Source: an uncultured Ferrovum sp. (lineage in GTDB: Bacteria; Pseudomonadota; Gammaproteobacteria; Burkholderiales; Ferrovaceae). From it: a DNA stretch of 64,000 nucleotides. Under the pieces are notes generated by a model that worked only from the letters and a program-made list of their open reading frames with translations, was not told the origin of the DNA and did not search any database. The stretch spans positions 62,001 to 126,000 of the forward strand of contig CAIVHB010000059.1 in the NCBI GenBank assembly GCA_903905585.1, read 5' to 3'. A program made the position numbers and the translations under genes. Below are positions 27,646 to 37,899 of this stretch, piece after piece; the stretch's first letter is position 1; each line of letters starts with the position of its first letter.

Positions 27646-27710
27646 AATTTATGCCTGACAAAGTCAGTTGTCAATCTAAATTGACAACAATCAAACGATA
27701 AGTGTCTAAA
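27646..27710. promoter_or_regulatory. Divergent bchF / ppaA promoters sharing one PpsR-type palindrome
   Basis: The 18-base palindrome TGTCAATCTAAATTGACA at 27669-27686 fits the PpsR/CrtJ operator TGT-N12-ACA exactly. Its right half is a perfect -35 box TTGACA (27681-27686) for the plus strand, followed after 18 bases by TCTAAA. Its left half is TTGACA on the minus strand (27674-27669), followed after 17 bases by TAAATT. One operator would therefore cover both -35 boxes, repressing the pigment superoperon and the ppaA-ppsR operon together. The operator match is direct; promoter activity is inferred. Confidence 0.75.
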
Positions 27711-33821: not shown

Positions 33822-34313
33822 ATGACTCGACCGTTCTTGCGTAAACCCGTATTGGTCGCAGCTGGGGTGGCCACACTGGTGGCTGCAGCCGGCGGCGGCG
33901 TTACCGATATCGGGCCATGGTATCAAGCACTTCAGTTCCCACCATGGAAACCACCCGATTGGGCTTTTGGACCCGTTTGGTCGGTTATTTTCACGCTGTG
34001 CGCGATTGTTGCGATCCGATCTTGGGACCGCGCAGAAACCCATGAAGATAAGCAGTGCATCATTGCGATGTTTGTCCTCAACGCGATCCTCAACTCTTTA
34101 TGGAGTGTCTTGTTTTTTGGTCTCCACCGGCCTGACTGGGCCCTGTGGGAAGTGGGTCCGCTCTGGATTTCAGTCGCCTTGTTGATTGTGGGATTGCGCC
34201 GCATCTACAAACCCTCGACAGGCATGATAATGCCTTATCTGATTTGGGTCGCGATTGCAGCGACCATGAACGCTTACATCGTTTACTACAATCCCCCTTT
34301 TAGCCCAAGCTAA
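33822..34313 (+). CDS. tspO: TspO/MBR tryptophan-rich sensory protein
   Basis: TspO is an outer-membrane or membrane-associated five-helix protein that binds tetrapyrroles and, in Rhodobacter sphaeroides, damps photosynthesis gene expression in response to oxygen. The 163-residue protein is rich in Trp and Pro and includes WYQALQFPPWKPPDWAFGPV, NAILNSLWSVLFFGLHRPDWAL and IWVAIAATMNAYIVYYN. It is 4 bases downstream of bchP and thus probably in the same operon. Control of porphyrin traffic is inferred from the family. Confidence 0.92.
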   Translation: MTRPFLRKPVLVAAGVATLVAAAGGGVTDIGPWYQALQFPPWKPPDWAFGPVWSVIFTLCAIVAIRSWDRAETHEDKQCIIAMFVLNAILNSLWSVLFFGLHRPDWALWEVGPLWISVALLIVGLRRIYKPSTGMIMPYLIWVAIAATMNAYIVYYNPPFSPS

Positions 34314-34391
34314 AAGGCTTTAACTCAAGGGACTATAAGCACCCTTGAATTCAATTCGCGCGCATCAGCGCTCTATCAGACAACCGGCATC

Positions 34392-34418
34392 TCCCATCAC
34401 ACGCTAGGTGTAATGGGA
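34392..34418. terminator. Hairpin between tspO and the convergent small membrane gene
   Basis: A near-perfect inverted repeat, TCCCATCACAC at 34392-34402 and its partner ending ATGGGA at 34418, forms a stem of about ten pairs with one mismatch and a 5-base loop. It lies between two convergent genes, where a shared terminator is expected, but no clear T-run follows on either strand. Confidence 0.5.
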
Positions 34419-34437
34419 GGATGACCTTATGAAGGTT

Positions 34438-34662
34438 TTAACGGCGAATAACGTTAGCCACAATATTCCAACGCATTGAAGTAGCCAGCGCTGCGCCTGC
34501 AATGAAGGCCAAAAGGGCGGTAATCAATGCAGATTGAGGGGTACCGTCTGGGTTGGTTAGGTAGAGCTTTCCAACAAATAACACTGAAGTCACCATCAAC
34601 ACAGCACTTGCTTTTGCTCCATTTCGGCGAGCGATTTCTTTGATGAGTTTATTGTAATCCAT
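34438..34662 (-). CDS. Small membrane protein, paralogue 1 (74 residues, unknown)
   Basis: A 74-residue protein with two predicted membrane helices (about 18-34 and 45-60). It is clearly related to the next gene upstream: both share IA-[RK][RK]-N near the start, DG[TS]xQSA in the connecting loop, then ALAF[IV]xGxALA[ST]S[ML]RW and a C-terminal RR. It has no cysteine and no recognisable family. An AAGAGAT segment lies 4 bases before the ATG. It is 12 bases downstream of its paralogue and looks co-transcribed with it, between tspO and pucBA. Confidence 0.75.
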   Translation of the reverse strand: MDYNKLIKEIARRNGAKASAVLMVTSVLFVGKLYLTNPDGTPQSALITALLAFIAGAALATSMRWNIVANVIRR

Positions 34663-34674
34663 AGTGATCTCTTC

Positions 34675-34899
34675 TTAGTTTGATGTTGAACGACGATAGT
34701 ATCGGGTGGCGCGATCCCAGCGCAGCGAGCTCGCTAAAGCAATCCCAACAACAAAAGCTAAAGCGGCTGTTGGCATGGCTGACTGAACAGATCCATCGAA
34801 ATGCGTGGTCGCCAAATTTAAAAGCAACACAAATGCGGAGAGAATCAGTGTGGTAAGCGCAAATCCACTATTCTTTTTTGCAATATCTATTTTCATCAT
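34675..34899 (-). CDS. Small membrane protein, paralogue 2 (74 residues, unknown)
   Basis: A 74-residue relative of the neighbouring gene, with two predicted membrane helices (about 11-31 and 43-60) and the shared features DGSVQSAMPTAALAFVVG, ALASSLRW and a C-terminal YYRR. The gene starts at one of two adjacent ATGs and is divergent from pucBA, so the 338-base spacer carries the control sites of both. A tandem pair that arose by duplication and is kept inside the pigment gene cluster suggests a role with photosynthetic membranes or pigments, but the sequence gives no biochemical hint. Confidence 0.75.
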   Translation of the reverse strand: MMKIDIAKKNSGFALTTLILSAFVLLLNLATTHFDGSVQSAMPTAALAFVVGIALASSLRWDRATRYYRRSTSN

Positions 34900-35237
34900 T
34901 AGGTGTCCGTCAATAGAGTTTAAGGAGGACTTGTATCGTATTTTTTGTCCACGACAAAGTTAGTGTAGATCAAGTTTTGCTATTTGTGTTCAGTTTTTAT
35001 CAAAAATAATCATATGTATGAGTGTGTTGCAAAAAAAAACATTTTGTCTTTGACATATTGCTTACTGTCCTGTTTAATTGACACGTCTTAATGTATCATC
35101 GCACTTACGGTTATGGTGAAAATTTATAACTGTTTGATGTTGCATTTCGAATTCGTGGTCTGTTCCGCCATGAGTAAGCCCTAGTGCCGGGTTGGCACGA
35201 TAGAAGTAAAAGTTCGTCGATGAGGGAGGATTTAGTT
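34900..35237. promoter_or_regulatory. Regulatory spacer between the small membrane genes and pucBA
   Basis: This 338-base AT-rich stretch holds no gene that I can support. It contains two short palindromes of the form TGTC-N3-GACA: TGTCCACGACA at 34946-34956 (part of TTTGTC-CAC-GACAAA) and TGTCTTTGACA at 35045-35055. The second covers the -35 box of the predicted puc promoter. Downstream lies an A-rich tract, a PpsR-type operator, and a leader of about 150 bases before pucB with a small GTGCC/GGCAC stem near 35190. The ribosome site GGGAGGA is at 35224-35230. Confidence 0.6.
35050..35083 (+). promoter_or_regulatory. puc promoter with overlapping PpsR operator
   Basis: A perfect -35 TTGACA at 35050-35055 is followed, after 17 bases, by the -10-like TTTAAT at 35073-35078. 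The sequence TGTCCTGTTTAATTGACA at 35066-35083 matches TGT-N12-ACA and covers the -10 box. PpsR bound here would block RNA polymerase, which fits known repression of puc operons by PpsR/CrtJ under air. The motif match is direct; function is inferred. Confidence 0.72.
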
Positions 35238-35393
35238 ATGACAGACGATCCAAACAAAGTCTGGCCGACAGGTCTGACAATTGGGGAAGCCGAAGAAATT
35301 CACAGCCACATCGTTGATGGGACCCGTATTTATGGTGCTATCTCGATCGTTGCGCATTTCTTAGCTTATATCTATACACCTTGGTTGCACTAA
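35238..35393 (+). CDS. pucB: Peripheral light-harvesting beta subunit PucB
   Basis: PucB is the beta apoprotein of the LH2-type antenna ring. I choose the ATG at 35238, 7 bases after GGGAGGA, giving 51 residues; a longer frame upstream has no ribosome site and no family sequence. The protein shows EEIHSHIVDGTR, where the Arg is the expected contact to B800. It also has IVAHFLAYIYTPWLH, where the His is the axial ligand of the lower bacteriochlorophyll pair. pucA follows after 13 bases with its own AAGGAGGA. Confidence 0.95.
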   Translation: MTDDPNKVWPTGLTIGEAEEIHSHIVDGTRIYGAISIVAHFLAYIYTPWLH

Positions 35394-35406
35394 GGAGGAA
35401 TAAAAA

Positions 35407-35634
35407 ATGATATATGGCCGTATGTGGCTGGTCATTAAGCCCGGCATTGGTATTCCCATGGGTGCAGTAGCAATTATGGGCACTTCGCTTGCCGTCCATA
35501 CCTGCATCTTGACTCACACCACGTGGTTTCCCGCGTTTCTCCAAGGCGGCGTTAAAGCGCAGCACGCAGCTGTGGAGACAGGCAAAGTTGCAGCAGCACC
35601 GCAACCGCCCATTGCAGTGGCATCGGCAAAGTAA
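35407..35634 (+). CDS. pucA: Peripheral light-harvesting alpha subunit PucA, B800-820 (LH3) type
   Basis: PucA is the alpha apoprotein of the LH2/LH3 antenna. The 75-residue protein aligns without gaps to Rhodoblastus acidophilus LH2 alpha: Trp7, Pro12, Gly15-Ile-Pro17, the bacteriochlorophyll ligand His31, and HTTWFPA at 37-43. Positions 44-45 read Phe-Leu instead of Tyr-Trp, removing both hydrogen bonds to the acetyl groups of the ring bacteriochlorophylls. Phe44-Leu45 is the signature of blue-shifted B800-820 complexes. Cys33 within the helix is unusual. The tail (about 50-75) is Ala/Pro-rich, as in other betaproteobacterial alpha subunits. Confidence 0.95.
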
Positions 35635-35657
35635 TTTATCGATCACCACCGTTGTGC

Positions 35658-35683
35658 AGATGGGGAGGTGCTCCTCTCCATCT
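35658..35683. terminator. Strong hairpin between convergent pucBA and pucC
   Basis: The 26-base sequence from AGATGGGGAGG to CCTCTCCATCT forms an 11-pair stem (one G-T pair) closed by the tetraloop TGCT. It sits between two convergent genes and can stop transcription from either side or protect the pucBA mRNA 3' end. No long T-run follows. Confidence 0.7.
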
Positions 35684-35699
35684 GGTCGCTTCTCTAAGC

Positions 35700-37100
35700 T
35701 TAGGCTTTATGGCGCGGAATAAGCGGCATCATGGCACCTAAGGCAATAATCAGCAGAGCAATTTCAATACAATACACCGTGACGTAGCCTAATGCCGAGG
35801 AAGTAAACAGGCTAGAGGTATCGAATACCTGTTGCGCAGAATAATTCGCGACCACATCTCTAATCACTCCACTCAACGCAACAGCCACACCCGCAGCGGA
35901 GGCTTGGGCCGCCCCCCAAGCACCCAAAGCCAGTCCACGTTGTTCTGCTGGGGCTTGGTTCATGGTGGCGGTGAGGGTTCCGTGCCCAAACAAACCTGCT
36001 CCAAATCCAATCAGGAAGGTACCCAATCCAAAGAAAAGAATCGAATGCATTGGGCCTGCAAAAATAACCAATAAAAAAGCGGGGATGCCGGTTAAAGCGC
36101 CTAAAGCAGCCATTTTGAAAGGATCATAACCACGGCTTAGCATTCGGGAGGCCAGCGCAAAACCAAAAAGCCCCCCCGCAGCTAAGGTGGCAGTCAGGCG
36201 CGTGGTCATATCTACGGTCAGATGCAATACCTGCCCCCCATAGGGCTCTAAGATCACATCTTCCATACTGAATGCCATTGTTCCCAGTGCAACCGCCAGC
36301 AACCTTCTGACCGCCTGATTACCCTGACTGTAACTTTGCCAGGCTTGCATAAAACGCGGCGTTACCGCATGCGGAGTCGTGTTTGCGCGATTGCGGCCCT
36401 CTTGTTTCCAAAGTGCAATAACATTCAAGGCTACCGTCAAGAGCGCAGCGGATTGGATGACTTGCACCAAGCGCATTGAGTTGAAGTTCACCAGGAGTGC
36501 TCCGAAAATAAAAGCACTCACAATCATCCCAAATAGCAACATGACATACATCAGTCCCACTACCTTTGGCTGGGCCTCTGGTTTAGCCTGATCAGTGGCG
36601 AGCGCCAACCCCACTGTCTGAACGGTATGGAGCCCTGCCCCGACAAGCAGAAACGCCAGACCCGCACCTAACTGCCCAGCCCAAACAGGCGCTTTACTGG
36701 CCTCTCCTGCTCCGGCCAATACCAGCAAGGCAAAGGGCATGATACTCAGTCCACCAAACTGCAGCATCGTACCCATCCAAATATAGGGCACCCGCTTCCA
36801 TCCAAGTTGGGAACGATGATTGTCTGAACGAAAACCAATAATGGCTCGAAATGGGGCAAACAGTAGGGGCAGTGAGATCATGATCCCAACAATAGATGCG
36901 GGGACTTCCATCTCAACAATCATGACTCGATTGAGCGTACCAATAAGCAAAGTCAGCGCCATTCCAACAGTGACTTGAAATAGGGAAAGGCGCAACAATC
37001 GGCTCAGAGGTAAATCTTCTGAGGCCGCATCTGCAAAGGGAAGGAATCGAGTGCCTAAAGTGGCAATTTTCCGAGTGATGGATTGTTTTATTTTACGCAT
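35700..37100 (-). CDS. pucC: PucC-type light-harvesting complex assembly protein
   Basis: PucC is a BCD-family MFS membrane protein needed for stable LH2 assembly. From the ATG at 37100 it has 466 residues and about twelve helices, with LPFADAASEDLPLSRLLRLS, GTLNRVMIVEMEVPASIVG and GWKRVPYIWMGTMLQFGG. It is a close paralogue of LhaA at 17324-18754. The start lies 10 bases beyond the stop of the DUF2063 gene with no evident ribosome site, so translation is probably coupled. An alternative ATG at 37127 overlaps that gene. It is convergent with pucBA, not downstream of it. Confidence 0.92.
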   Translation of the reverse strand: MRKIKQSITRKIATLGTRFLPFADAASEDLPLSRLLRLSLFQVTVGMALTLLIGTLNRVMIVEMEVPASIVGIMISLPLLFAPFRAIIGFRSDNHRSQLGWKRVPYIWMGTMLQFGGLSIMPFALLVLAGAGEASKAPVWAGQLGAGLAFLLVGAGLHTVQTVGLALATDQAKPEAQPKVVGLMYVMLLFGMIVSAFIFGALLVNFNSMRLVQVIQSAALLTVALNVIALWKQEGRNRANTTPHAVTPRFMQAWQSYSQGNQAVRRLLAVALGTMAFSMEDVILEPYGGQVLHLTVDMTTRLTATLAAGGLFGFALASRMLSRGYDPFKMAALGALTGIPAFLLVIFAGPMHSILFFGLGTFLIGFGAGLFGHGTLTATMNQAPAEQRGLALGAWGAAQASAAGVAVALSGVIRDVVANYSAQQVFDTSSLFTSSALGYVTVYCIEIALLIIALGAMMPLIPRHKA

Positions 37101-37110
37101 CCGAACTATA

Positions 37111-37899
37111 TTACTTAAGCCCACCATTTTGTAAATAACCGATGAAGGCACCATTACTGAATAAATCACCCATGAGCAAGATAAAATCAAAGTTTGCATC
37201 CTCACGATTCGCTATCTTTAGGGCCTCCTCCAGAGAATGACTGCTCATTAGCGCTTGAATAAAGATGCGTTCCCCAGTTTGAAGAGATTTCACAACAACA
37301 TTCAAATCGTATCTAAGAATGAGTGCGATCTCAGCTTGATAAGGGTTTACCTTGGCCAGTGCTTGGGCAATTTCAAGTTCTGATTCATGCTGATGCGCTA
37401 ACCATAGTGAGGCAATCGCATATTGAGAATCAATGAGAGAAACTGAAGGATGAAATTGCCAGCGACTTGCGGCCAACGCTTCGGGGCTCGCAAGAAGCGT
37501 GTTGACTGCCTCTAGGTTCATAGTTGAACGATCTGCAACCTCTCCGGCAACCCTACACTGCCATTCAAGACGCGCCATGTCTGCAAGATAAGGAACCGAT
37601 TCTGCCGGTGCAAACTTTAAAATGAATTGAGCAAACTGATCACCATACGCATTCATCACAGGTGAACGGGGGGGGTTGGCTAAAGCAAACGCTTTGGCCA
37701 TCGCGCGGAAAAAATCCTCTCCGACCAAAGTTGTAACAACGGGATAATTGTTCTGCAGCACTTTGATCAAAGATACCATCACGTTATTCCGATACACGTC
37801 AAAACGCGCGTTGGTATCGGATCCGATTATGGATGTAATGCCCTCTGGCAAAGCGCTAGAAGCATCTAACAAAGCAGTTGAAAAGTGGTGAGATTTCAT
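37111..37899 (-). CDS. DUF2063 (BufC-like) partner protein of the MNIO enzyme
   Basis: A 262-residue protein matching the DUF2063 putative DNA-binding/partner family: [23 protein letters not shown] near the N-terminus, [13 protein letters not shown], and [11 protein letters not shown] in the middle. Such proteins are encoded next to DUF692 (MNIO) enzymes and are thought to recruit their precursor peptide. The start ATG at 37899 overlaps the DUF692 stop as ATGA; a longer frame to 37923 overlaps that gene further and is less likely. The substrate peptide was not found nearby. Confidence 0.85.

Follow-up and report, generated by a model that had tools for sequence, protein, structure and literature searches.

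A central question raised by this locus is what two tiny membrane-protein genes, P1 and P2, are doing in tandem at the edge of a photosynthesis gene cluster, back to back with genes for a light-harvesting (LH) antenna. The window, by which we mean the whole stretch of 64,000 nucleotides that was analysed, is part of the 2.29-Mb genome (G000) of a light-using, iron-oxidising lake bacterium. The photosynthesis gene cluster in it ends in the order ...ppsR-bchG-(bch2/pucC-like)-bchP-tspO, followed by P1 and P2 on the minus strand, pucBA on the plus strand and a convergent pucC (gene names beyond those matched by profiles are presumed from our reading of the translations). The features concerned are:

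33822-34313, plus strand: tspO, convergent with the P1/P2 pair (PF03073, E 1e-36)
34391-34419: stem-loop lacking a T run, between the ends of P1 and tspO (72-nt region around it, z -4.2)
34438-34662, minus strand: P1, a 74-residue two-helix membrane protein, second gene of the pair (open reading frame; G004 orthologue; AF2 hairpin)
34675-34896, minus strand: P2, a two-helix membrane protein, first gene of the pair (open reading frame; G004 orthologue; AF2)
34900-35237: intergenic region of 338 bp common to the P2-P1 and pucBA units, with many blocks conserved in G004
35066-35083: PpsR/CrtJ-type palindrome TGT-N12-ACA, TGTCCTGTTTAATTGACA, a candidate operator, identical in G004
35238-35393, plus strand: pucB-type antenna beta subunit, divergent from the pair (PF00556, E 3e-9)
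35407-35634, plus strand: pucA-type antenna alpha subunit (PF00556, E 1.9e-6)
35700-37205, minus strand: pucC-type major-facilitator assembly protein, convergent with pucBA (58-66% identity to puc-linked PucC elsewhere, and tree)

The lineage of the window probably falls within 'Candidatus Solisferrum', the four phototrophic Ferrovaceae species from stratified lakes presented in a 2026 paper (PMC13390463). In that paper's account of Ferrovaceae phototrophy, 'puc' and 'light-harvesting' occur zero times; positions 35238-37205 of the window hold a puc-type antenna locus, which is thereby recorded in phototrophic Ferrovaceae.

The first-pass annotation had described P1 and P2 as two tandem genes of 74 residues, 12 bases apart, and both open reading frames are indeed present, on the minus strand. 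P2 measures 74 residues when read from an ATG at 34899 and 73 from the ATG that follows, the latter being its likely start since it is the sole start ATG conserved in the sister species G004. The proposed paralogy holds: the two proteins align with 39% identity, and P1 retrieves P2 within the genome with an E value of 1e-9. Each contains two hydrophobic segments and no Cys, as had been noted. The motifs ascribed to both are largely present, except that the one in the second membrane segment (TM2) reads [LA]LAF rather than ALAF (P1 has LLAF), and the terminal RR claimed for both occurs at the end of P1 but not of P2, which ends in RRSTSN. In G004, which belongs to the same genus and shares the order bchP-tspO / P1-P2 / pucBA-pucC with G000, the orthologues are 77% identical for P1 and 93% identical for P2. 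Nucleotide differences between the species are distributed over the three codon positions as 21/10/41 in P1 (dN/dS 0.08, with dS saturated at 2.6) and as 4/4/27 in P2 (dN/dS 0.03). Since gene order is kept in G004, differences are in excess at third positions and dN/dS is low, P1 and P2 are real genes, beyond chance open reading frames, and both are under purifying selection.

Selection of this strength, along with the conserved place between photosynthesis genes, argues against the pair encoding a small hydrophobic toxin, a holin or mobile-element cargo, as small size, two helices and weak PHROG matches (P2 only, E 0.056 or worse) might suggest. No P1/P2 relatives were confirmed in the viral contigs scanned, and we consider this reading barely credible.

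Profile searches upheld the description of the family as unknown: no relative of P1 or P2 above threshold was found in Pfam, NCBIfam, PHROG or PDB, and judged by sequence the two are a new orphan family, unnamed in the libraries searched. No published account of the pair was found in the literature searched on antennae, PufY/protein-U, PpsR and phototrophic Ferrovum. DUF5337 (PF17272), whose members resemble P1 and P2 in having about 75 residues and two hydrophobic segments, was matched by P1 at E 0.0021 (18.3 bits against a cut-off of 27) and had no match to P2. This identity was dropped because the 77%-identical P1 orthologue has no such match, because profile-profile comparison (hhalign) returned a probability of 0.4%, and because other two-helix proteins match plainly unrelated families comparably (best E 0.0006-0.5). 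The 13 genomes with DUF5337 over the cut-off are all from a single family (f95), which shares the phylum of the window but not its class. Matches of P1 to Cake and Scone designs in the PDB reach E 1e-11 over 13-25 residues, with zero stretches passing alone, and were treated as repeat artefacts since they disappear with the A2 profile. No Foldseek match of the AF2 model reached E 0.001; Foldseek and VIA-align return generic helical hairpins and coiled coils.

The distribution of the family was searched with P1 or the A2 profile as query. Credible homologues occur in two of the 61 relatives searched (G000 and G004) and in two of the 32 family genomes, where G031 adds a weak match (E 0.0026) inside a 581-residue frame. 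The 398 phylum genomes yielded one match at E 0.001, G000 itself, and the 399 order genomes, 49 of which have LH genes, yielded G000 and weak matches only, the best of the others being in G168 (8.5e-5, with an in-frame stop). Among the matches listed in a scan of genome contigs, only G004 carries relatives. A2 matches in G060 (E 0.013) and G308 (E 0.0018), which lie some 13 kb away from puc, correspond to a small two-helix open reading frame conserved between these two species of one genus; they were not counted as homologues and are within chance, because 181 of the 399 genomes match at E 1 or less. Homologues in non-phototrophs, which had been named beforehand as evidence against an antenna role, were found in none of the genomes searched, chiefly owing to the restriction of the family to two genomes. 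In the suggested survey for presence in phototrophs only, the family never appears in the non-phototrophs searched, but it is also missing from most puc genomes (29 of 31).

AF2 models, built from four sequences only, predict a hairpin for P1 (helices 3-35 and 42-73; pLDDT 73, pTM 0.47) and, less surely, for P2 (helices 2-32 and 41-73; pLDDT 67, pTM 0.35); confidence in both models is moderate and their structural matches are generic. Lys and Arg together number 5/0/3 in the N-terminus, loop and C-terminus of P1 and 3/0/5 in those of P2, and since positive charges lie at both termini with zero in the loop, an N-in/C-in topology is predicted for each. Across P1, P2 and the two G004 orthologues, the loop residues D39-G40-x-x-Q43-S44-A45 are invariant (4/4 sequences), as are the small residues A49, A52, G56 and A60 of helix 2 and its closing R64-W65. 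The spacing of A45, A49, A52, G56 and A60 suggests a helix-packing face.

Antenna alpha and beta subunits, which have one helix with a bacteriochlorophyll-binding His, resemble P1 and P2 in being small membrane proteins, and they are encoded next door. Neither P1 nor P2 matches their profile (PF00556) up to E 10, whereas pucB and pucA do, and a bacteriochlorophyll-ligating His inside a membrane helix, the hallmark of these subunits, is found in neither. P1 has no His at all and P2 has one, in the loop outside the helices, with none invariant across the four sequences; in the absence of a conserved His, the pair therefore has no antenna-type bacteriochlorophyll ligand.

The pair is divergent from pucBA and has a control region in common with it, as the first-pass annotation stated: 338 bp separate P2 from pucB, including a 29-bp stretch upstream of P2 that is identical in G000 and G004. 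This region contains a TGT-N12-ACA pattern of the kind that defines candidate operators of the PpsR/CrtJ regulon. Such a pattern occurs in about 4.5% of the window's stretches of 338 bp, and over the whole window nine were found against 13.3 expected, with no over-representation, so that the case for a PpsR-type site at 35066 comes from its place and its conservation rather than from window-wide enrichment. Work on the betaproteobacterium Rubrivivax gelatinosus showed that PpsR binds to motifs of this kind in the pucB promoter and that pucB rises about 190-fold aerobically when ppsR is deleted (PMC4452267). By its location, the palindrome at 35066-35083 may also govern P2-P1. No consensus sigma-70 promoter and no consensus terminator were found at 34300-35240; the stem-loop between P1 and tspO retains a perfect stem in G004 with a different sequence. 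Two further elements identical in G004 were observed in the window: a short hairpin, GTGCCGGGTTGGCACG, in the pucB leader at 35184-35199, possibly a leader element, and a perfect extended palindrome, TGTCAATCTAAATTGACA, at 27669-27686 between bchF and the gene for a B12-binding regulator (aerR-like), which is likely a PpsR operator.

Which photosynthetic component might the pair serve? Within the genus, puf, puc and the pair are all present in G000 and G004, and G001 and G003 have puf only, without the pair; neither LH genes nor bchP were recovered from G002, and bchP was not recovered from G001. The co-occurrence of puc and pair is thus read from two genomes with both and one informative genome without, G003, whose block runs bchN...bchP-tspO and continues with unrelated genes, containing neither pair nor puc. 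From this single informative genome, and by analogy with two other families (X and Z, below), we tie the pair to puc and not to any of puf, bchP and tspO. Its position beside bchP-tspO, where the photosynthesis gene cluster ends, would also suit a role in the core complex or in the supply of pigment, lipid or quinone, for example as a quinone-path spacer or as partner of a bacteriochlorophyll or carotenoid enzyme, the more so as the nearest architectural analogue, protein-U/PufY, acts in LH1-RC. Yet G003 retains puf and the bchP-tspO block without the pair, and the pair faces puc and not puf, which sits on a different contig; we hold such a role to be improbable, if still worth entertaining. 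A partnership with TspO, which the annotation had raised and which might concern porphyrin or redox signalling, has in its favour that the pair lies next to tspO, but it is disfavoured: the genes are convergent with a conserved stem-loop between them, and tspO occurs without the pair in G003 and other phototrophs (G032 and G060), making this reading very improbable.

Further evidence comes from puc neighbourhoods elsewhere, compared across 31 genomes with a puc-type pair (the regions of G105, G236 and G265 were dropped as puf). Family X, a two-helix protein of 74-88 residues, is present in 12 of these Burkholderiales genomes (the G352 copy is truncated), its gene converging on the 3' end of pucC, for example:

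L112, 8047-8271, minus strand: family X
L032, 11579-11839, minus strand: family X
L128, 7970-8236, minus strand: family X
L131, 4065-4313, plus strand: family X

Three others carry family Z, a two-helix protein of 59-66 residues whose gene immediately follows pucC in the same orientation, all in one genus (g25 of family f18):

L119, 7990-8190, plus strand: family Z
L129, 7917-8111, plus strand: family Z
L138, 4044-4223, minus strand: family Z

P1/P2 account for two of the 31 neighbourhoods, and 14 have no such two-helix neighbour (in G238 the contig ends just past pucC); a conserved one is absent from four of the seven pucC groups compared. In 300 order genomes, family X gave eight matches, all single, on the puc contig and within a few kb of puc. 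X carriers cluster in a pucC tree of 28 sequences plus outgroup (support 86/85). G279 is among them, although the other two members of its genus, G060 and G308, lack X and carry a pucC of another type; X thus appears to be inherited with pucC. Family X has no match above cut-off in Pfam or NCBIfam, and the puc-linked two-helix families of Burkholderiales are found under no name in these two libraries. Homology between P1/P2 and X, the family covered by the profile comparison, is not supported (hhalign probability 0.3%). X is like P1/P2 in size, in its two helices and in its linkage to puc, but it lies 3' of pucC whereas the pair lies 5' of pucB, and G000 has no X match.

Small membrane proteins were also observed beside other photosynthesis genes. 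Other Burkholderiales phototrophs encode small two- or three-helix proteins, apparently of one family, immediately behind bchP or tspO; two of these proteins were scanned, and neither matches a known family above cut-off:

L109, 7803-8027, minus strand: small protein after bchP or tspO
L110, 6251-6532, plus strand: small protein after bchP or tspO
L153, 2699-3010, plus strand: small protein after bchP or tspO
L160, 2717-2986, plus strand: small protein after bchP or tspO
L169, 709-999, minus strand: small protein after bchP or tspO

In G048 (L036, 9820-10044, minus strand) an extra open reading frame lies between pufB and pufA, with a beta-like WRSWFPG ending and no His in its helix, and the pufB-pufA gap is similarly long in several other order genomes (about 370-390 bases between LH match starts).

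It might be argued that P1 and P2 are bystanders, general small membrane proteins of the envelope, transport or stress that became fixed beside puc by chance in one small clade and have no photosynthetic role. They are, after all, an orphan family of two species, forming their own transcription unit with a stem-loop at its end, and two-helix small open reading frames occur beside control genes too: in a strict mechanical count within 400 bp they accompany 3 of 117 control genes against 5 of 31 puc units (Fisher p 0.01), an enrichment that is weak and only indicative because the genomes are related. Against this, the pair is absent from the non-phototrophic relatives searched, has a PpsR-type control region in common with puc and occurs with puc within the genus. 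We judge the bystander reading unlikely, though it has to be taken seriously. The same observations, that the pair is not found in the non-phototrophs searched, travels with puc in the genus and faces a conserved PpsR-type palindrome, lend substance to the role in antenna or pigment membranes first suggested for it. Of the narrower proposal of a small partner of LH rings, the part that stands is that other puc operons hold two-helix miniproteins as well; a general LH partner is not what P1 and P2 are, since the family is missing from 29 of the 31 puc-bearing genomes.

Taken together, the reading we prefer, tentatively and at somewhat less than even confidence, is that P1 and P2 serve the peripheral (LH2-type) antenna as accessory membrane proteins specific to this lineage and act in the assembly or packing of that antenna. 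A wider proposition, which we regard as doubtful but worth stating, is that Burkholderiales puc operons have recruited two-helix miniproteins of unrelated origin in different clades (P1/P2, X and Z) as LH2 subunits or assembly partners, P1/P2 being a partner duplicated into a heteromeric pair. As accessory proteins of LH2, P1 and P2 would be produced when PpsR repression of puc is lifted and would insert as hairpins with both ends in the cytoplasm. The small-residue face of helix 2 (A45, A49, A52, G56 and A60) would pack on a partner helix, and the two proteins may form a hetero-oligomer. During the building or packing of LH2 this oligomer would sit alongside LH alpha/beta helices or PucC, in the way that protein-U/PufY lies against LH1 alpha.

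By analogy, our best reading is that P1/P2 work like protein-U/PufY of the Rhodobacter sphaeroides LH1-RC without being its homologue. No protein-U chain appeared among PDB matches up to E 10 with P1, P2 or the A2 profile, in a set that we take to include such chains. Protein-U has 53 residues and two helices with both ends cytoplasmic (PMC8564508); it lies against LH1 alpha subunits, and its loss reduces core dimers (PMC8564508; PMC10214105). Like P1/P2 it is tiny and light-harvesting-linked, with two small-residue-rich helices, a short loop and a lineage-restricted distribution, and the topology of two helices, short loop and cytoplasmic ends is also the one predicted for P1/P2 from hydropathy, charge and AF2. 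It differs in length (53 against 73-74 residues) and in being a single gene with unrelated neighbours and a component of LH1-RC with no puc linkage. PufX and protein-U are small membrane proteins that decide antenna ring opening, packing and quinone exchange, and protein-U was overlooked until cryo-EM because it is tiny, as the same sources relate (PMC8564508; PMC10214105). The puc-linked orphan pair and the two further families, X and Z, point to possible LH2 helpers comparable to those of LH1; if recruitment clade by clade is correct, LH2, usually described as alpha/beta rings plus pigments, would have clade-specific hairpin partners just as LH1 does.
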